Origin: Limnochorda pilosa
GTDB taxonomy: Bacteria; Bacillota; Limnochordia; Limnochordales; Limnochordaceae
Assembly (NCBI RefSeq): GCF_001544015.1
Contig: NZ_AP014924.1
Span: 2,914,001 to 2,978,000 of the forward strand
Direction of reading: 5' to 3'
Length of the DNA stretch: 64,000 bases
Part shown: in pieces, positions 31,593 to 43,385 of the stretch
How the letters are laid out: each line of letters starts with the position of its first letter
How positions within the stretch are numbered: the stretch's first letter is position 1
Translations under genes and position numbers: made by a program
The notes under the pieces: model-generated
Told to the model about the DNA's origin: nothing
Database searches by the model: none
What the model saw: the letters and a program-made list of their open reading frames with translations, nothing else

Positions 31593-32375
31593 TTACCTCC
31601 CATCTGCGCGACCCGGATTCATCGCCCGTCGAAGACCCAAGGCCCACCGAACCGCCCGGCGGCTCCCTGGGGGCAAGCGTTCAAGGGCCCAGGCTGCGCC
31701 CTCGTCCTTGGAGAGGACGCGGCCGGTCTCCAGGTAGGCCAGGGTGCGGCAGGCGTTCATGATGGCGTACTCCGGGTCTTGATCGAACCGCTCCAGCGCC
31801 CAGTGCAGATCGCTCAGGATGGACACGAGGTAGTCCTTCGGAGGCACCAACGGAAAGACACTGGCCGGTGGAGGACCATACAGAGCCGCCCCGCGGGCGC
31901 GCGCCACCGTGATGTGGGCTGCGAGGTCCGGATCGACGTGAACCTCGTCGTTCCACTGCCGCCAACTCCCGTCCCCAATTTCGGCGGTGAGCCGTTCCCG
32001 CCAGGACTCACTGAAGTGAAACAGGTACGGGGCCGGGTGACGCCACGGGTCGAGGTCTTCGGCGGCAAGGAGATGGAATTCGACCACGCAGGGTGAACCC
32101 GACAGCCGGAGGAGCAGCGCCGCCAAACGGCGCTTCTCGATGGGCTCCACAGGTAGCCGGCTGATCCCGATCAGGTCGACGTCACTCCGAGCCGGCCTGA
32201 AACCCCCCGTGGCCAGCGACCCATGGAGGTAGATGCCCAGCAGCCGGTTTCCCAGGATCCGGAGCAGCTCCTCGACCAACCGGTGCACCTGCACGTACAC
32301 CGGTTGAGGAACGTCGGGCCAACGAACGGGCTCACGCCCTTGCTCTGATTCCATGTCCCACTCAGAACGCACCAT
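31593..32375 (-). CDS. AadA-like aminoglycoside nucleotidyltransferase family protein
   Basis: 260 aa, the length of ANT(3'') enzymes. GIYLHGSLATGGFRPARSDVDL is the GS-x9-DxD nucleotidyltransferase motif. The C-terminal helical domain matches AadA-type proteins (NACRTLAYLETGRVLSKDEGAAWALERLPP). Known members adenylate streptomycin/spectinomycin, but chromosomal relatives may have other substrates. It ends 4 bp before btuF and interrupts the btu locus. ATG 32375 has GGAG about 9 bases upstream; ATG 32354 is an alternative. Confidence 0.82.
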   Translation of the reverse strand: MVRSEWDMESEQGREPVRWPDVPQPVYVQVHRLVEELLRILGNRLLGIYLHGSLATGGFRPARSDVDLIGISRLPVEPIEKRRLAALLLRLSGSPCVVEFHLLAAEDLDPWRHPAPYLFHFSESWRERLTAEIGDGSWRQWNDEVHVDPDLAAHITVARARGAALYGPPPASVFPLVPPKDYLVSILSDLHWALERFDQDPEYAIMNACRTLAYLETGRVLSKDEGAAWALERLPPGSRRAVRWALGLRRAMNPGRADGR

Positions 32376-32437: not shown

Positions 32438-32614
32438 ATGGGGGTGAGCGCCAGGTCGTCCCGAACCTTCACGGCCATCATCCATCGTGAAGACGACCTG
32501 TACGTGGCCGAGTGCCCTGAAGATGGGTCCCTTACCGTCACGCCTGTCACACCAGGGAAGCCCGGTGCCTCCTCAGCAGCCAGAGGAAGAAGGGCACGCC
32601 CGCCAGGGCGGTGA
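32438..32614 (+). pseudogene. Truncated HicB-type antitoxin
   Basis: A 58-codon plus-strand frame starts with SRTFTAIIHREDDLYVAECPEDGSL, which is the conserved N-terminal strand-turn-strand of HicB antitoxins. After about 30 residues similarity stops and the frame runs into the 3' end of btuC on the other strand. The usual middle (EEALANLKEA-like helix) and DNA-binding tail are missing, and no HicA toxin is found next to it. It looks like a relic, probably left by the event that also placed the aadA-like gene in the btu locus. Confidence 0.65.
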
Positions 32615-33629
32615 CCACGCCCACCGGCAGCTCCACGGGGCTGAGCAGCATCCGGGCCAAGGTGTCGCTGGCCACCAGGAGGGTGGCTCCCATCAGCCCC
32701 GCGACGGGGATCAGGAGCCGGTGGTCCGGTCCCATCACCAGCCGGACCGCGTGGGGCACGATGAGCCCCACGAAGCCGATCACCCCGCTCACCGAGACCG
32801 CAGCCGCGGCCATCACCGAGGCGGTGAAGAGCAGCCTTCGCTTCACCCGCTCCGGTTCCACGCCCAGGTGGTAGGCAGCCTCCTCACCCAGGAGGAGCAG
32901 GTTCAGCTCGCGGGCGTGCACCATGGCCAGCAGGGCGCCCGCGGCGAAGTAGGGCGTGACCACGGCCACCTCCCGCCAGCTCGCCCCCGAGAGGCTCCCC
33001 ATGAGCCAGAAGATGGCGGTCTCGGCGCTCTTGCGGTTCAGGGTGAGGACGAGCGAGACCAGGGCCGAGCAGAGGGCCGAGACCGCGACCCCCGCCAGGA
33101 GCAGCCCGGTCATGGGAACCTCTTCCCGCACCCGGGCCAGACGGTAGACGAGCGCCACGGTCGTCAAGGCGAAGAGGAGGGCGGCCCCCGGGACCGCCTG
33201 GAACCCCAGCCAAGGCGCCCGGCCGGCCAGGGTGAGCGCAAGCACCGCCCCCACCGAGGCTCCACCTGAGACGCCCAGGATGTAGGGGTCGGCCATGGGG
33301 TTCCGAAAGAGGCCCTGCAGGGTCGTGCCCGCCACCCCCAACGCCGCCCCGATCAGCGCCCCCAACACCACCCGGGGCAGCCGCACCTGGAAGAAAATGG
33401 CCTCGTAGCTCTGGGGCCACGGGGTCTCCACCGGCCCCAGACTCAACCGGGCTCCCACCATCTGGAGCAGGGTCAGGGGTCCGATGCCGGCCGGCCCCAG
33501 CGCGGCCGAGACCAGCGCAACCCCCGCCAGGAGGAGGGCGGCCGCAGCCAGGGCGCTCCCAGGCCGAAGGCGGCGGCTCGACCCGGACCCCTGCAACCCG
33601 CCCGGGCTTTCCGGGGCCGGCGTGCTCAC
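32547..33629 (-). CDS. btuC: FecCD-family ABC permease, cobalamin-type
   Basis: 360 aa, about ten membrane segments. Family marks are QVRLPRVVLGALIGAALGVAGTTLQGLFRNPMADPYILGVSGGASVGAVLAL and GVIGFVGLIVPHAVRLVMGPDHR. GTG 33629 overlaps the btuD stop (GTGA). Specificity for corrinoid is inferred from the B12 riboswitch and btuF. Confidence 0.92.
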   Translation of the reverse strand: MSTPAPESPGGLQGSGSSRRLRPGSALAAAALLLAGVALVSAALGPAGIGPLTLLQMVGARLSLGPVETPWPQSYEAIFFQVRLPRVVLGALIGAALGVAGTTLQGLFRNPMADPYILGVSGGASVGAVLALTLAGRAPWLGFQAVPGAALLFALTTVALVYRLARVREEVPMTGLLLAGVAVSALCSALVSLVLTLNRKSAETAIFWLMGSLSGASWREVAVVTPYFAAGALLAMVHARELNLLLLGEEAAYHLGVEPERVKRRLLFTASVMAAAAVSVSGVIGFVGLIVPHAVRLVMGPDHRLLIPVAGLMGATLLVASDTLARMLLSPVELPVGVVTALAGVPFFLWLLRRHRASLV

Positions 33630-34498
33630 GCGGTTCCCTCGCCGGGCAGCCCATTCCCCGGCGCCGGCACGCCCGCCGCGCGCAGGGGCAGCAGGTGAAC
33701 GGCCGGGGCCTCCGCCGCCGGGTGCCGCCCCAGGATCACCCGGGTGCCGTACACCCGCTCCAGCACCGGGGCGGCCAGGACTTGGGAGGGCGGTCCGTCG
33801 GCCACCACCTGTCCCCGATCCAGGAGGATCAGCCGCGGCGCGTAGAGACTTGCCAGGTTCAGGTCGTGGAGGACGGCCAGCACCGTCATGCCGCCGGCGT
33901 GGCAGAGCCCGGCCAGGAGGTCCAGGACCTCCACCTGGTGGCCGATGTCCAGGTGGCTGGTGGGCTCGTCCAGGAGGAGGAGCGCCGGTTCCTGCGCGAG
34001 CGCCCGGGCCAGGATCACCCGCTGGCGCTCACCGCCCGAGAGCTCGCTGAAGGGCCGGTCCGCCAGGACCCGTACCCCCGCCCGCTCCATGGCGCGGCGC
34101 ACGGCCTCTCGGTCCCCTTCCCGCTCCCGCTGGAAGCGCTTCAGGTGAGGGCTTCGCCCCATGGCCACCACCTCGTCCACCCGGAACGTGAAGGGCACCG
34201 GCTCTTCCTGGGCCACCACCGCCACCCGCCGCGCCAGCTCGGCGACGGGCCAGACGGCCAGGGGCCGGCCGAAGAGGCGGATCGTGCCCGCGCTGGACCT
34301 TACCCTGCCGGTAATCGCCCGCAGCAGGGTGGACTTGCCCGAGCCGTTGGGTCCGATCAGGGCCGCAAGCTCGCCGCGCTGGAGTCCGAGGGAGAGATGC
34401 CGCAGGACCGGAGCCGTGCCGTACCCGCCCGTAAGGTCATCGATGGACAGCACCGGCGTATCGGGGAGGGGAGCGCGCACGTCGAGTCCTTCCTTCAC
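33626..34498 (-). CDS. btuD: ABC ATPase of the corrinoid importer
   Basis: 290 aa. Walker A GPNGSGKSTLL, signature ELSGGERQRVILARAL, Walker B LLLLDEPTSHLDIGHQ and VLHDLNLASLY are typical of FepC/BtuD ATPases. GTG 34498 has GAGG 7 bases upstream. First gene behind the B12 riboswitch and its terminator. Confidence 0.93.
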   Translation of the reverse strand: MKEGLDVRAPLPDTPVLSIDDLTGGYGTAPVLRHLSLGLQRGELAALIGPNGSGKSTLLRAITGRVRSSAGTIRLFGRPLAVWPVAELARRVAVVAQEEPVPFTFRVDEVVAMGRSPHLKRFQREREGDREAVRRAMERAGVRVLADRPFSELSGGERQRVILARALAQEPALLLLDEPTSHLDIGHQVEVLDLLAGLCHAGGMTVLAVLHDLNLASLYAPRLILLDRGQVVADGPPSQVLAAPVLERVYGTRVILGRHPAAEAPAVHLLPLRAAGVPAPGNGLPGEGTA

Positions 34499-34517: not shown

Positions 34518-34542
34518 CGAAACCCGGCTGCGGGCAGCCGGG
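34518..34542 (-). terminator. Riboswitch expression-platform terminator
   Basis: CCCGGCTG and CAGCCGGG form a perfect 8-bp stem with a 4-base loop, followed by TTTCG on the minus strand, 20 bp before the btuD start. It is the likely off-switch when cobalamin is bound. Confidence 0.75.
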
Positions 34543-34615
34543 TGAAGGAACCAGGGCCCCGTGCGGGGACCCGGCCAGACGGTTCCCTCTCACCGCGGAG
34601 GGCAACGCAGTCTCA

Positions 34616-34781
34616 GCGCGTGGCAGGTCTCCTGGCTCCCGGTTCCTCGCCCGCCCTCACCTTCCCCGGCCTCAGGCCAGGTGGTCTTCCGAAGGGGGCT
34701 CACCGGTGACAGTGGCGGGGCCGCTCGGGACTCGCACCCGATTCCCTATTCTCCGCCCTTGTGAGGGGCGGCACCACGCGC
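34616..34781 (-). ncRNA. Cobalamin (B12) riboswitch aptamer
   Basis: On the minus strand an outer helix GCGCGTGG (34781-34774) with CCACGCGC (34623-34616) encloses the conserved core. Within it lie AATAGGGAA, GGGTGCGAGTCCC, the CCGCCACTGT box, GGGAAGG and the B12 box GAGCCAGGAGACCTGCC, in canonical order and spacing. A terminator follows before btuD, implying transcriptional control of btuDC. The 5' 36 bases of the aptamer lie inside the last codons of the upstream MFS gene, so the RNA must start within that gene or come from readthrough. Confidence 0.95.
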
Positions 34782-36242
34782 CCGCCTGGAATGATCTGCT
34801 TCCATCATAGTGCCGGCGGGCTCGGGCGTCAACGGCACCGGCGCCCCCCGTACCAGCGAGGTGAGCACACCCACCATCGCCAGCACCGCCCCGGCCAGGA
34901 ACGCGTCGCGCACGGCCCAGGCGTAGGCCTGCTGGGCGACCACGCCGGCCGGGCCGGCGAGGTAGGCGGCGCGCCGGGTGGTGAAGATCGCCCCGCTCAC
35001 CGCGATCCCCAGGACCATGCCCACGTTGCGCATGGTGGCCAGCATGCCGCTCCCCTGGCCCAGCCGCTCTCGGGGCACGCTGCCCATGATGGCGCTGTTG
35101 TTGGGCGGCTGGAAGAGGCCCGCGCCCACCCCCACCAAGGCCAGGCGCCAGACGATGGAGGCTGCGCCGCTCTCGGGCACCAGCCGGCTCAGCGTCCATC
35201 CCGCCAGGGCCAGCACCGCCATGCCCGCGGCGGCCAGCTCCCGGGTGCCCCAGCGGTCGGACAGCCACCCTGCCAGCGGCGCGAGGGGCAAGAACATCAG
35301 GGGGAAGGCGAGCATCAGCAGCCCCGCCTCCTGGGCCGTGCGGCCCTGGACGTCCTGGAGGAAGAACGGCATCAGGAAGGTGACCGAGAACTGGGCCATG
35401 AAGTTCAGCAGCGCGCTGGCGCTGGACGAGGCGAAGACCCGGTTGCGGAAGAGGGCGACGTCGACCATCGGGTCCCGCCGGCGGCGCTCCACGGCCACGA
35501 AGAGCCCGAGGGAGGCGATCCCCACGAACCCGAGGAGCAGGACGGCCCCGCTCCCCCATCCCCACACCTCGCCCCGGCTCAGAGCCAGGAGGAGCGCTCC
35601 CAGCCCGAGCCCCGCCAGCGCCGCGCCCGGCACGTCGAAGGCGCCGGTCCCCGGCCGGGTGGGGAGGCGGGGAATCACCCGTCCGGCCCAGAAGATGCCG
35701 GCGGCCCCGATGGGCAGGTTGATGAGGAAGATGGAGCGCCATCCGAAGCGGGTCACCAGGTAGCCGCCGAGAACCGGGCCCAGGGCCAGCCCCGCCGCGA
35801 CCACCATCCCGTTGAGGCCCAGCGCCCTTCCCCGTTCCTGGCTCGGAAAGGCCGCGGTGATGATGGCAGGTCCGGCGGCCATCATCATGCCGGCCCCCAG
35901 CGCCTGCACGGCCCGGGCCCCGATGAGCGCCCCCATGGTGGGCGCCGCGGCGCAGAGGAGCGATCCGAGGCTGAAGACCCCGAAGCCGCTCAGGTAGACG
36001 GGGCGGTGGCCGTACAGGTCGCCCAGGCGCCCGTAGGTCAGGAGCAGCGTGCTCACCAGGAGCAGGTAGATCATGGCCACCCACTCGGAGGTGACCAGCG
36101 GCACCCCGAAGGCATGGGTGAGCGTGGGCAACGCGATGTTCACCACGCTGCCGTCCAGCGGCGCCATCAGGGTCCCCAGGTTGATCGCAGCCAGGATGCG
36201 CCACCGCTCCGGGAGTCCTGCGGGTTGGGTCGCTGTGCTCAA
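34746..36242 (-). CDS. MFS multidrug exporter, DHA2/EmrB-QacA type
   Basis: 498 aa, fourteen predicted membrane segments. Motifs: LDGSVVNIALPTL (motif D), LLTYGRLGDLYGHRPVYL (motif A), ARAVQALGAGMMMAAGPAII (motif B), NGMVVAAGLALGPVLGGYL (motif C). Proton-driven export of drugs or other small amphipathic molecules; substrate unknown. TTG 36242 with GGAG 5-6 bases upstream is the likely start. Its 3' end is also the beginning of the B12 riboswitch. The tail after the last helix (ADHSRRARGAAPHKGGE) is basic and may simply be riboswitch sequence read as protein. Confidence 0.93.
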   Translation of the reverse strand: MSTATQPAGLPERWRILAAINLGTLMAPLDGSVVNIALPTLTHAFGVPLVTSEWVAMIYLLLVSTLLLTYGRLGDLYGHRPVYLSGFGVFSLGSLLCAAAPTMGALIGARAVQALGAGMMMAAGPAIITAAFPSQERGRALGLNGMVVAAGLALGPVLGGYLVTRFGWRSIFLINLPIGAAGIFWAGRVIPRLPTRPGTGAFDVPGAALAGLGLGALLLALSRGEVWGWGSGAVLLLGFVGIASLGLFVAVERRRRDPMVDVALFRNRVFASSSASALLNFMAQFSVTFLMPFFLQDVQGRTAQEAGLLMLAFPLMFLPLAPLAGWLSDRWGTRELAAAGMAVLALAGWTLSRLVPESGAASIVWRLALVGVGAGLFQPPNNSAIMGSVPRERLGQGSGMLATMRNVGMVLGIAVSGAIFTTRRAAYLAGPAGVVAQQAYAWAVRDAFLAGAVLAMVGVLTSLVRGAPVPLTPEPAGTMMEADHSRRARGAAPHKGGE

Positions 36243-36264: not shown

Positions 36265-37251
36265 TCAGCGGCCGGCCCACGTTTCCAGGGCAGTGCCGGG
36301 ATAGTAGTGCGACAGGATCTCCTCGTAGCTCCGGCCGGCCTGGGCCAGGCCGTCGGCGCCGTACTGGGACATCCCCACGCCGTGGCCGAACCCCCGGACG
36401 ACGAAGCGGGCGCCCGTGCCCTCCCAGGTCACGTCGAACCAGGTGGAGGGCAGGTTCAGCGCCTCCCGGACCTCGCGCCCCGTGTAAACCCTGGAGCCGT
36501 AGGCGAAGCGGCTCACCCGCCCCGAGGGATGACGCCCCGCGATCTTCAGCGGGGGCGCCTCTCCCCGCCACTCCAGGGGTCCGAGCCGCCCCGCAAGCTG
36601 GGCCCGGTCCACGAAGCGCTCGGTGCGGGCAAAGGGTCCCCGGTCCCCATAGGGATCCGGCTGGCTTACCAGGTAGGGGAGCGGCTCCTGCCAGACGTTC
36701 TCCGCCGCCTCGGTCTGCCCGCCGCTGGTGCTGTGGAAGGCCGCGAAGATGGGTGCTCCCTGGTACGTGAGGATCAGACCGCGCGTCGCCAGCACGGCCT
36801 CGGCCACCTTCCTCCAGGCGAAGGGGTAGCGCCACCAGCCCCAGCGACGCTTGAGAACCTCAGGGGAGCTCCAGGCCTGGTCCCGCGCGGCCTGGTCCGT
36901 GATGGTCGCCGTACCGCCCGCCGCCTGCTCCTGCAGGCGACGGACCGCCAGGGTCCGCGAGGCGACCGCCTGGGCCTTGATCGCCTCAGGGTGGAAGGTG
37001 ACGGGCACCTCGCCCGCCACCGCGCCCGCCACGTAGGCCTCCAGGGGGATCTGCACGACCCGCCCCAGGTCGCTGCGCCAGAGCGCGACCGGGGGCCCGC
37101 CCAGCTCGGGCAGGGGCGGCCAGAGCGCAGCAAGGACCGCCAGGCCCAGGCCCAGAACGAGCCCCGCCAGCGCCGCCCAGCCCAAGGCAGGCCGGTACCA
37201 CCCGCGGGCGATGGTGCGGAGCCGGACGGTGGAGTCGGAGAGGCGCCTCAT
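36265..37251 (-). CDS. SpoIID/LytB-domain protein
   Basis: 328 aa. One membrane anchor at about residues 20-45, then the SpoIID domain: IPLEAYVAGAVAGEVPVTFHPEAIKAQAVASRTLAV, IFAAFHSTSGGQTEAAENVW and GFGHGVGMSQYGADGLAQAGRSYEEILSHYY. SpoIID is the lytic transglycosylase that degrades septal peptidoglycan during engulfment. Whether this is the canonical SpoIID or a paralog is not settled. ATG overlaps the SPOR gene stop by 4 bp (ATGA). Confidence 0.92.
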   Translation of the reverse strand: MRRLSDSTVRLRTIARGWYRPALGWAALAGLVLGLGLAVLAALWPPLPELGGPPVALWRSDLGRVVQIPLEAYVAGAVAGEVPVTFHPEAIKAQAVASRTLAVRRLQEQAAGGTATITDQAARDQAWSSPEVLKRRWGWWRYPFAWRKVAEAVLATRGLILTYQGAPIFAAFHSTSGGQTEAAENVWQEPLPYLVSQPDPYGDRGPFARTERFVDRAQLAGRLGPLEWRGEAPPLKIAGRHPSGRVSRFAYGSRVYTGREVREALNLPSTWFDVTWEGTGARFVVRGFGHGVGMSQYGADGLAQAGRSYEEILSHYYPGTALETWAGR

Positions 37252-37808
37252 TGCGAGCTGACGAAGGCCTGGGGATAGCCCGCCTCGCGCAGCGCCTGCA
37301 GGCGCTGGTTGGCACCGTCGGCGCTGCGGAACGCCCCCGCCTGCACCCGGTAGGGCGGCCCCGAGGTGATGCTGGCCTCGAAGCCCTTCGACTTCAGCTC
37401 CTCGACCAGGACCTGCGCCCGCTCCCGCTCGGAGAAGGAGCCCACCTGCACCCGGTAGAGCCCGCTCCCCGCCGGCGGGGCGGTGGCGGGGCGCGCGGCC
37501 TCCGGTCGGGTCTGCCCGGTCCCGCCGGCCCCTGCCTCTGAGGAAGCCGGTACGGGCGTGCTTGCCTGGTCCCGGGTCTCTGCGGGCGCCTCGCTGCCCG
37601 CCCCAGGCGACGGCGCCGGGCGGGGGGCGGAGACGGTCGCTTCGCCCGCCGAGGCCGGCGGCATGGTGAGCATGGCGATGGCGTAGTAACCCAGTCCGTA
37701 GCCCAGGGCCAGGGCGGCCAGCGCCACGAGCCCAACCTGCACCCGGAAGGGAATGGCCCGGCGCTTGCGCACCGTCCGCCTCGCGGCCCCACGGCTGTCT
37801 GCCCTCAT
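37248..37808 (-). CDS. SPOR-domain membrane protein, SpoIIB position
   Basis: 186 aa. A basic N-terminus, one membrane helix (VQVGLVALAALALGYGLGYYAIAML), a roughly 60-residue Pro/Ala linker and a C-terminal SPOR domain from about 115 (GLYRVQVGSFSERERAQVLVEELKSKGFEASI, YRVQAGAFRSADGANQRL). SPOR domains bind glycan strands lacking stem peptides at septa. Lying between folC and the maf-radC-mre genes, it occupies the place of Bacillus spoIIB, also a SPOR protein that helps engulfment. Overlap with spoIID-like supports a joint role. Confidence 0.88.
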   Translation of the reverse strand: MRADSRGAARRTVRKRRAIPFRVQVGLVALAALALGYGLGYYAIAMLTMPPASAGEATVSAPRPAPSPGAGSEAPAETRDQASTPVPASSEAGAGGTGQTRPEAARPATAPPAGSGLYRVQVGSFSERERAQVLVEELKSKGFEASITSGPPYRVQAGAFRSADGANQRLQALREAGYPQAFVSSQ

Positions 37809-37824: not shown

Positions 37825-39336
37825 TCATACTTCCCTGGCCTTCCCGGCGCTCCTTCCGCGGAACCATACTTCCCCCGCCCCGAGCCTGGCCTTCACCTCT
37901 CCCACCAGGTAGAGGGAGCCGCAGACGCAGATCCAGTCCCTCGGGCCGCGCAGCCCGTCCGCCAGCCGCAGGGCGTCCAGGGCGTCGTCCGCGGACCACA
38001 CCCGTTCGGTGAAGCGGCCGGCCAGGGCCGCCAGGCTTGCGGGCGCCGCAGGTGGGGTACGGCTCTCCCGCGGCCGGGTGGCCACCACCCCCGCGGCCAG
38101 AGGCGCCAGCGCCTGCAGCATAGGCTCCACCGCCTTGTCCGAGAGGCATCCGAAGACCAGGAAGAGCGCCGGCACCCCGGGGTCTGGGCCCGGCACCGCG
38201 CCGCCTCGGGGCGACGAGGGGAAGAGCGAGACGAGCGCTCGGGCCAAGGCCTGGGCACCCTCGGGATTGTGGGCCCCGTCCAGGATCACCCGCTCCCCGC
38301 GAAGCACCTCCAGCCGCCCCGGCCAGCGCAGGCCGCGCCACCCTTCCGCGAGCCACCGGGCCGCCGCCTCGTCCAGCGCCCGGCGGCCGGCCGGTTCGTT
38401 GGGCGAAGGCGCACCCGCGGGCGGGCCCGCACCCGCCGCGAGCTCGGGGGCCAACAGCAGGACCGCGGCCGCGGCCGTGGCCCCGTTGGCGGCCTGGTGG
38501 GGTCCGGCCAGGGGCAGCTCCAGCTCCAGGCTCGTGCGCCACGGCGTTTCCAGCCGGAAACGGGTACCGGCGAGGCTGGCGTCCAGGAGGCGGTACGTGA
38601 AGGCCTCTCCGGACGGCCCCTCCGCCACGCGTTCCACGGGCGAACCCATCTCGGCCGCCCGGGCCTCGAGCACCTCCAGCGCCCCGGGCGGTTGCGGCGC
38701 GAGGACCACGGGCCTCCCCGGCTTGATGATGCCGGCCTTCTCGGCGGCGATGGCCTCCAGGCTCCCGCCCAGTACCTCCACGTGGTCGTGGCCGATGGGG
38801 GTGATCACCGACAGCTCGGGGGTCACCAGGTTGGTGGCGTCCCAGCGGCCGCCCAGACCCACCTCCAGTACCGCCCACTCCACGCCCTTCCGGGCAAAGT
38901 GATCGAAGGCCAGGGCCGTGCCCACCTCGAACTGGGTCGGCCGCCCCACCGCCGGATCGGCCGCCGCCTCCTCGGCCCAGGGGCGGATCCGCTCCACCCC
39001 CGCCGCCAGGGACTCGTCGTCGATGGGCTCGCCGTCCACCTGGATCCGCTCGTGGAAGCGGATCAGGTGGGGTGAGGTGTAGAGGCCCACCCGGGCCCCG
39101 GCGGCCCGGAGCGCCGCGGCCACCGCCGTCGCCGTGGACCCCTTGCCGTTGGTGCCCGCCACGTGCACGCTGCGGAAGGCCCGGTGGGGGTTTCCCAACC
39201 GCTCGGCCAGGTAGGCGATCCGCTCCAGCCCCGGACGGGCACCGAAGCGGGCCAAGTCGGCCAGGTAGGCCAGGGCCCGCTCCGCGGCCGCGGTCCCCTC
39301 GGTGCCGCCGGCGGCCACCGGTTCGTTCCCCGTCAC
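37825..39336 (-). CDS. folC: Folylpolyglutamate/dihydrofolate synthase
   Basis: 503 aa, somewhat longer than usual (about 430). HVAGTNGKGSTATAVAAALRAAGARVGLYTSPHL is the Mur-ligase-type P-loop and omega-loop region; EVGLGGRWDATN and ILDGAHNPEGAQAL are further markers. It adds glutamate to folates. Ala/Gly/Pro insertions explain the extra length. GTG 39336 overlaps the valS stop (GTGA). Confidence 0.95.
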   Translation of the reverse strand: MTGNEPVAAGGTEGTAAAERALAYLADLARFGARPGLERIAYLAERLGNPHRAFRSVHVAGTNGKGSTATAVAAALRAAGARVGLYTSPHLIRFHERIQVDGEPIDDESLAAGVERIRPWAEEAAADPAVGRPTQFEVGTALAFDHFARKGVEWAVLEVGLGGRWDATNLVTPELSVITPIGHDHVEVLGGSLEAIAAEKAGIIKPGRPVVLAPQPPGALEVLEARAAEMGSPVERVAEGPSGEAFTYRLLDASLAGTRFRLETPWRTSLELELPLAGPHQAANGATAAAAVLLLAPELAAGAGPPAGAPSPNEPAGRRALDEAAARWLAEGWRGLRWPGRLEVLRGERVILDGAHNPEGAQALARALVSLFPSSPRGGAVPGPDPGVPALFLVFGCLSDKAVEPMLQALAPLAAGVVATRPRESRTPPAAPASLAALAGRFTERVWSADDALDALRLADGLRGPRDWICVCGSLYLVGEVKARLGAGEVWFRGRSAGKAREV

Positions 39337-42467: not shown

Positions 42468-43385
42468 CTATTCTACCGGCAAGCGCTCCCGGGTGTCAAG
42501 GGACGCCTCGAGCCCGGCAAGCCAGAACCATCCGTCGCGACGGTGCTCGATGAGCTGGGGCCCGTGGTCGGTGTCGAAGCGGTACCGCTGGGAACCCGCC
42601 TGTTCGCCGGGCTCCCGCCCCAGGAGCCCCCGCACCACCAGCGGCCGGTCCGCGGTCCAGAAGCAGGCGGGCAACGCTTGCCCGGCCCGGAAGCCCGGCA
42701 CCACGGGAATAGGGACCGCCGGCTCGTCCGAACCAGCCGCCGCCTCCTCAACGTCAGGCGCTGCCTCTGCCACCGGGGGGGCTACCGGGGAGCCTCCCGG
42801 CGCGGCACCCACCTCCGTGGCGCAAACGACCCGGTTCTTCCCCTGCCGCTTGGCGATCCGCAGGGCCAGGTCCGCACGTTCCACCAGCGTCCGCCCGTCG
42901 TCACCGTCGGTGGGGTAGCTGGCCACACCGCCACTGAGCGTGATGTGCAGCCGGCCGCCCAGGAAGCCCCGCGCCTCCACCTGGCGCTGGAGGCGCCGCC
43001 CCACGCGCAAGGCTGCCTCTGCATCCGTCTCGGGCAGCAGGAGCAGGAACTCCTCGCCCCCGTGGCGGACGGCGATGTCCATGGTGCGCGCGCTCTCGCG
43101 CAGGACCTCGGCCAACTCCATCAGGAGGCGGTCGCCAGCGGGGTGTCCGAACTGCTCGTTCACGTCCTTGAACCCGTCCAGGTCGAGGAAGACCAGGCTG
43201 AACGGCCTCTCGTACCGCCGGGCCCGGTTCAACTCCTCCTCCAGCCGCAACTCCAGGTACCGGCGGTTGTAGAGGCCCGTGAGCTCGTCGGTGAGGATGA
43301 GGTGCTGCAGGCGTTCGAACTCGCGGCGAAGACGGTCCAGCGTCGCCTCCACGTCGTGGAGCAGGGTCTGGAAATCGTCTGGCAT
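42468..43385 (-). CDS. GGDEF diguanylate cyclase with unknown C-terminal domain
   Basis: 305 aa from ATG 43385 (GAGGGG 10 bases upstream; an ATG at 43466 is possible but lies on the promoter). A short coiled coil (LLHDVEATLDRLRREFERLQHLI) leads to the GGDEF domain from about residue 30 (TDELTGLYNRRYLE, FLDLDGFKDVNEQFGHPAGD). The active-site loop is GGEEF (109-113). RTMD lies five residues before it and fits the RxxD allosteric I-site, so product inhibition by c-di-GMP is likely. After an acidic Pro/Ala linker, about 75 C-terminal residues (QALPACFWTADRPLVVRGLLG, DGWFWLAGLE) form a beta-rich domain that I do not recognise firmly. No membrane segment or sensor domain is visible. Confidence 0.92.
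   Translation of the reverse strand: MPDDFQTLLHDVEATLDRLRREFERLQHLILTDELTGLYNRRYLELRLEEELNRARRYERPFSLVFLDLDGFKDVNEQFGHPAGDRLLMELAEVLRESARTMDIAVRHGGEEFLLLLPETDAEAALRVGRRLQRQVEARGFLGGRLHITLSGGVASYPTDGDDGRTLVERADLALRIAKRQGKNRVVCATEVGAAPGGSPVAPPVAEAAPDVEEAAAGSDEPAVPIPVVPGFRAGQALPACFWTADRPLVVRGLLGREPGEQAGSQRYRFDTDHGPQLIEHRRDGWFWLAGLEASLDTRERLPVE
42470..42499 (-). promoter_or_regulatory. SigA-type promoter of the valS T-box leader
   Basis: TTGACA (42499-42494), 18-bp spacer, TAGAAT (42475-42470) on the minus strand. It is embedded in the last codons of the cyclase gene, whose stop TAG is part of the -10 neighbourhood. Confidence 0.88.

Follow-up and report, generated by a model that had tools for sequence, protein, structure and literature searches.

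Locus and aptamer

The locus lies within a 64,000-nucleotide stretch of Limnochorda pilosa DNA (contig NZ_AP014924.1, positions 2,914,001 to 2,978,000; hereafter the window, from whose first base all coordinates are counted unless stated otherwise). Reading along the minus strand, the order is a folC-like gene, a SPOR-domain-like gene, a spoIID-like gene, an MFS exporter, a cobalamin riboswitch, a btuD-like gene and a btuC-like gene. The first three names come from reading the sequence and not from a family search. The features are as follows, all on the minus strand.

37825..39336, minus: folC-like gene (named from reading the sequence)
37248..37808, minus: SPOR-domain-like gene (named in the same way)
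36265..37251, minus: spoIID-like gene (named in the same way), 76% identical to the gene adjoining the riboswitch in the congener described below
34746..36242, minus: MFS exporter of the DHA2/EmrB type, 498 aa (TIGR00711, PF07690)
34804..34832, minus: promoter-like TTGACG-17-TATGAT inside the MFS frame (pattern scan, congener conservation)
34605..34793, minus: cobalamin riboswitch aptamer, RF00174 (cmscan, full-length)
34773..34781, minus: P1 5' strand GCGCGUGGU, entirely within the MFS frame (sequence and CM alignment)
34753..34771, minus: P2 hairpin CCGCCC...GGGCGG, entirely within the MFS frame (CM alignment)
34746..34748, minus: MFS stop codon UAG within the conserved AAUAGGGAA, that is, J2/3 and the first two P3 bases (sequence and CM alignment)
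34616..34624, minus: P1 3' strand GCCACGCGC, overlapping the end of the B12 box (sequence and CM alignment)
34536..34576, minus: alternative hairpin GGCCGGGU...ACCCGGCU, a putative antiterminator (-19.6 kcal/mol)
34520..34543, minus: terminator-like hairpin ACCCGGCUG-CCCG-CAGCCGGGU, then a short U tract, UUUCGU (-17.2 kcal/mol)
33626..34498, minus: btuD-like ABC ATPase, the first gene under predicted riboswitch control (PF00005, corrinoid/heme ABC ATPase models)
32547..33629, minus: btuC-like permease (PF01032, E 2e-96; closest NCBIfam model BtuC, below its cut-off)

Searching with cmscan returned a single RF00174 match, at 34793-34605 on the minus strand, which covered model positions 1-189 of 189 and scored 118.8 bits (E 3.5e-29; gathering threshold 31.5 bits). 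Alignment to the covariance model pairs G34781-U34773 with G34624-C34616 to form P1 (nine pairs), 34771-34766 with 34758-34753 to form P2, and the P3 5' strand, A34747-G34745, with C34627-U34625; the B12 box, AGCCAGGAGACCUGCC, is present alongside this P1/P2/P3 pairing. The aptamer lies upstream of the btuD- and btuC-like genes on the same strand, and thus resembles other RF00174 elements preceding btu uptake genes in its full-length aptamer, its B12 box, its AAUAGGGAA motif and the btuDC pair downstream. Unlike them, its P1 5' strand, its P2 and its promoter double as codons of the upstream gene. Judged from its sequence, the element is an ordinary member of the known cobalamin riboswitch family, found in an unusual overlap with a neighbouring gene. 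The same genome holds a second cobalamin riboswitch (L001, G000:C1:3674177-3674370), which starts 27 bases after the stop of a cobT-like gene and is followed by a further btuD-like gene, with about 55% identity.

The MFS reading frame within the aptamer

The MFS protein exceeded the curated cut-off of TIGR00711 (277.1 against 230.2 bits) and matched PF07690 with an E-value of 2e-73. Its reading frame holds the P1 5' strand, the whole of P2 and J2/3, so that, in the one assembly from which this sequence is known, it overlaps the Rfam match by 48 bases, or by 36 bases if the count starts at the outermost P1 pair. The frame closes at the UAG, of which U34748 closes a small J2/3 pair and A34747 and G34746 are bases 1-2 of P3. 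A preliminary description of the locus had already placed a P1 strand (34774-34781) in the last MFS codons and the MFS stop (34746-34748) within the aptamer. Both placements were borne out: the former comprises the 5' bases of the outer eight of the nine P1 pairs, the latter reads TAG at the junction of J2/3 and P3, the Rfam model puts the P1 5' strand wholly inside the MFS frame and not outside it, and no earlier MFS stop occurs in the present sequence.

MFS homologues aligned in the same frame up to around residue 466-470, beyond which their tails were mostly short (about 0-29 residues) and unrelated; the last ~32 residues of the L. pilosa protein lie past this conserved family end. Third-position GC was 0.95 over the first 466 codons compared with 0.4-0.67 over codons 481-498 (the last ~18). 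A frameshift or misannotated frame was considered and rejected, because the homologues align in frame as far as the last helix.

Promoter, leader and the congeneric locus

The -10 box of the promoter-like sequence ends 11 bases before the start of the aptamer match. In the 801 bases from 35100 to 34300, scanned on both strands, it was the one sigma-70-like promoter found (0.0 expected in shuffles). The 3,817,036-base genome contains 36 copies of the strict pattern TTGACR-N16-18-TATRAT and the reversed control 0, and the pattern is therefore a real signal in the present organism; from its density in the genome, it would be expected by chance, in the correct orientation, in about 2 of every 10,000 stretches of 40 bases. 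Promoter-like sites also precede aptamers at similar positions in several other genomes of the order. A further copy of the strict pattern, TTGACG-17-TATAAT at 8746-8718 (minus strand), just before a tRNA gene at 8680-8608, would be a useful positive control for this promoter type. Transcription from the internal promoter is predicted to start around 34797, four bases before the Rfam match, and RNA from it does not carry the MFS start codon. In the part of the Burkholderia cenocepacia start-site study consulted (PMC4603805), 105 of 2089 primary start sites lie inside an upstream gene, and the RNAs of cobalamin riboswitches begin 8-14 bases ahead of the element as annotated. The likeness is that a downstream gene has its promoter inside the coding sequence of the gene before it; a riboswitch aptamer inside the upstream gene is reported here and not in that part of the study.

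Comparison with one other member of the genus (G001, L005/L024) showed the order folC-SPOR-spoIID-[promoter-riboswitch]-btuD-btuC, which is otherwise syntenic, with protein identities of 54-79%, and from which the MFS gene is absent. There spoIID is the direct upstream neighbour of the riboswitch and stops ~10 bases before the -35 box. Both promoter hexamers and their 17-base spacing are identical in the two species, whereas the sequences of the spacer have drifted apart; beyond the -35 box, in the upstream direction, the two loci become progressively less alike. The aptamer has not been weakened by the overlap, since that of the congener scores equally (119.2 bits against 118.8 here). As the congener has the promoter-riboswitch module but no MFS gene, this gene most likely arrived later, and the simplest history is most likely that it was placed upstream of an existing module, its frame being closed by the UAG of the aptamer. 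Alternatively, it could have been lost from the single congener compared, which would leave the present-day mechanism unchanged. The preliminary description, which called for the junction to be compared in relatives, had the riboswitch built partly from the MFS coding end; this probably reverses the history, the MFS end having most likely been built from the riboswitch. Its either/or, that the RNA starts inside the MFS gene or depends on readthrough, was correctly framed, and the conserved sigma-A-type promoter inside the MFS frame now favours the first alternative.

Could the promoter-like match be unused, with the riboswitch acting only on long folC-spoIID-MFS operon transcripts? The genes are co-directional and overlapping, a terminator scan of 35100-34300 found no recognisable terminator between MFS and btuD, and neither MFS nor spoIID has a strong promoter match immediately before it; going farther upstream on this strand, one is next met near 42499. 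Nevertheless, both hexamers are identical in the congener despite the diverged spacer, and the pattern is rare and non-random in the genome, which makes exclusive dependence on read-through improbable. Some read-through from the upstream operon is likely all the same, given that 35100-34300 has no recognisable terminator and that, from spoIID to the end of MFS, the riboswitch promoter is the sole match reaching 10 or more of the 12 promoter positions.

Downstream of the aptamer, the terminator-like hairpin failed the stricter T-run rule of the scanner; the congener has an equivalent terminator-like hairpin with UUUUCUCUU. The alternative hairpin would consume the 5' arm of the terminator, so that the two are mutually exclusive, and six of its pairs are possible in the congener. 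The leader as a whole was no more stable than its shuffles. Two exclusive hairpins would fit transcription attenuation. The true start of btuD is likely the GUG at 34480, which follows GGAAGGA. Farther downstream, btuC is separated from a btuF-like gene by an AadA/ANT(9)-like nucleotidyltransferase gene (31593-32375, minus strand); in the congener, the surroundings of btuC showed neither the nucleotidyltransferase nor the btuF-like gene.

Rarity and significance of the overlap

We surveyed 109 further cobalamin riboswitches of Bacillota (L102-L210) from about 120 genomes, a sample that favours high-scoring riboswitches. In none of the 109 did an upstream ORF of more than 105 codons end inside the aptamer. 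Five shorter ORFs did so, and these begin within ~155 bases of the riboswitch and lie for the most part inside it. Nor did a credible upstream gene end inside the aptamer in any of 18 other riboswitches of the order, where three long ORFs with such ends (L003, L090 and L101) were taken as shadow frames because they have no Pfam match and a third-position GC near 0.66, the background value. In two genomes of the order (L091 and L093), a genuine gene, for an ATPase of the IstB/DnaA type, extends just to where the aptamer match begins and stops short of P1, which is a near-overlap only. As the sample favours high scorers and 14 of the 109 loci exceed 55% GC, such overlap may occur at a modest frequency in high-GC genomes. 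AATAGGGAA was found in 45 of the 109 aptamers, most others having TAA at the same place; with such a stop, UAG or UAA, built into the conserved motif, a reading frame that runs in from upstream can end within the aptamer. A recurrent pairing of exporter and riboswitch was rejected, as none of 20 MFS-homologue loci had any Rfam match, riboswitch included. In annotated plasmid records, no annotated gene lay under the cobalamin-like matches where annotation was given, although these matches mostly miss P1/P2 and the gene table is incomplete. A literature search found no report of the same arrangement.

The nearest precedent for translated codons overlapping a B12 riboswitch leader is provided by the metE and ppe2 riboswitches of Mycobacterium tuberculosis with their uORFs (PMC11260477). 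However, the short ORFs there begin inside the leader, whereas here the overlapping frame is that of a 498-codon gene, which starts 1.5 kb upstream, at 36242, and ends in J2/3. Translation of a short ORF inside the metE aptamer suppresses MetE (PMC11260477), and interference between ribosome and aptamer is thus real in kind. By analogy, the overlap might have been selected as a translation-coupled switch, in which ribosomes reaching the UAG in J2/3 hold P1/P2 open and MFS expression overrides the B12 repression of btuDC on read-through RNA. The positions of the stop codon and of P1/P2 would sterically permit this, and the genes have no recognisable terminator between them. Against it, the arrangement is absent from the congener and from every other riboswitch surveyed, RNA from the internal promoter lacks the MFS start, and nothing ties the exporter to B12. 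We consider such a switch quite improbable. That the overlap has been kept as useful, with exporter translation into the aptamer letting the upstream operon override, or be ended by, the B12 riboswitch as a combined sensor of B12 and upstream translation, appears very improbable. An assembly or sequencing error, with the real MFS stop near codon 466-475 and the overlap an artefact, is hardly credible: the homologues do end close to the last helix and the MFS tail has no coding signature, but loss of that signature is expected from overprinting, the error would need to lie within the ~15 bases that separate codon 466 from the -35 box, or within the few from the -10 box to P2, the genome is a single contig, and the match of aptamer and promoter bases to the congener indicates that the overlap region itself is sound.

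We therefore favour, with good confidence, a standard cobalamin riboswitch with its own promoter controlling btuDC, upstream of which an MFS gene was later inserted, whose frame takes in the promoter and the beginning of the aptamer. In the ancestor, the promoter-riboswitch module would have been flanked by spoIID and btuD, an arrangement that the congener retains. The exporter gene would then have been inserted between spoIID and the module. Beyond the codons of the last membrane helix, its frame would have crossed the promoter, P1 and P2 and ended on reaching the conserved UAG. On RNA from the internal promoter, starting near 34797, the riboswitch would act normally upstream of the B12 (corrinoid) uptake operon btuDC, where B12 binding most likely favours the downstream terminator and switches uptake off. 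Some upstream-operon transcripts probably read through into the riboswitch. In these, its terminator would stop transcription of folC-spoIID-MFS as well, and P1, P2 and J2/3 would be occupied for a short time by ribosomes completing MFS. Competition between exporter translation and aptamer folding, as suggested in the preliminary description, is possible on these read-through transcripts only, and is made plausible there by the lack of a recognisable terminator between the genes.

The overlap is rare; it probably reflects chance in how the genes came to be arranged and not a new mode of action. It offers a clear natural case in which the 3' end of a gene overprints both a promoter and a structured RNA, and a close relative shows the locus as it is when this gene is missing. 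For annotators it is a warning that a gene end within a riboswitch can be legitimate, and it provides a natural construct for asking whether ribosomes disturb co-transcriptional aptamer folding.
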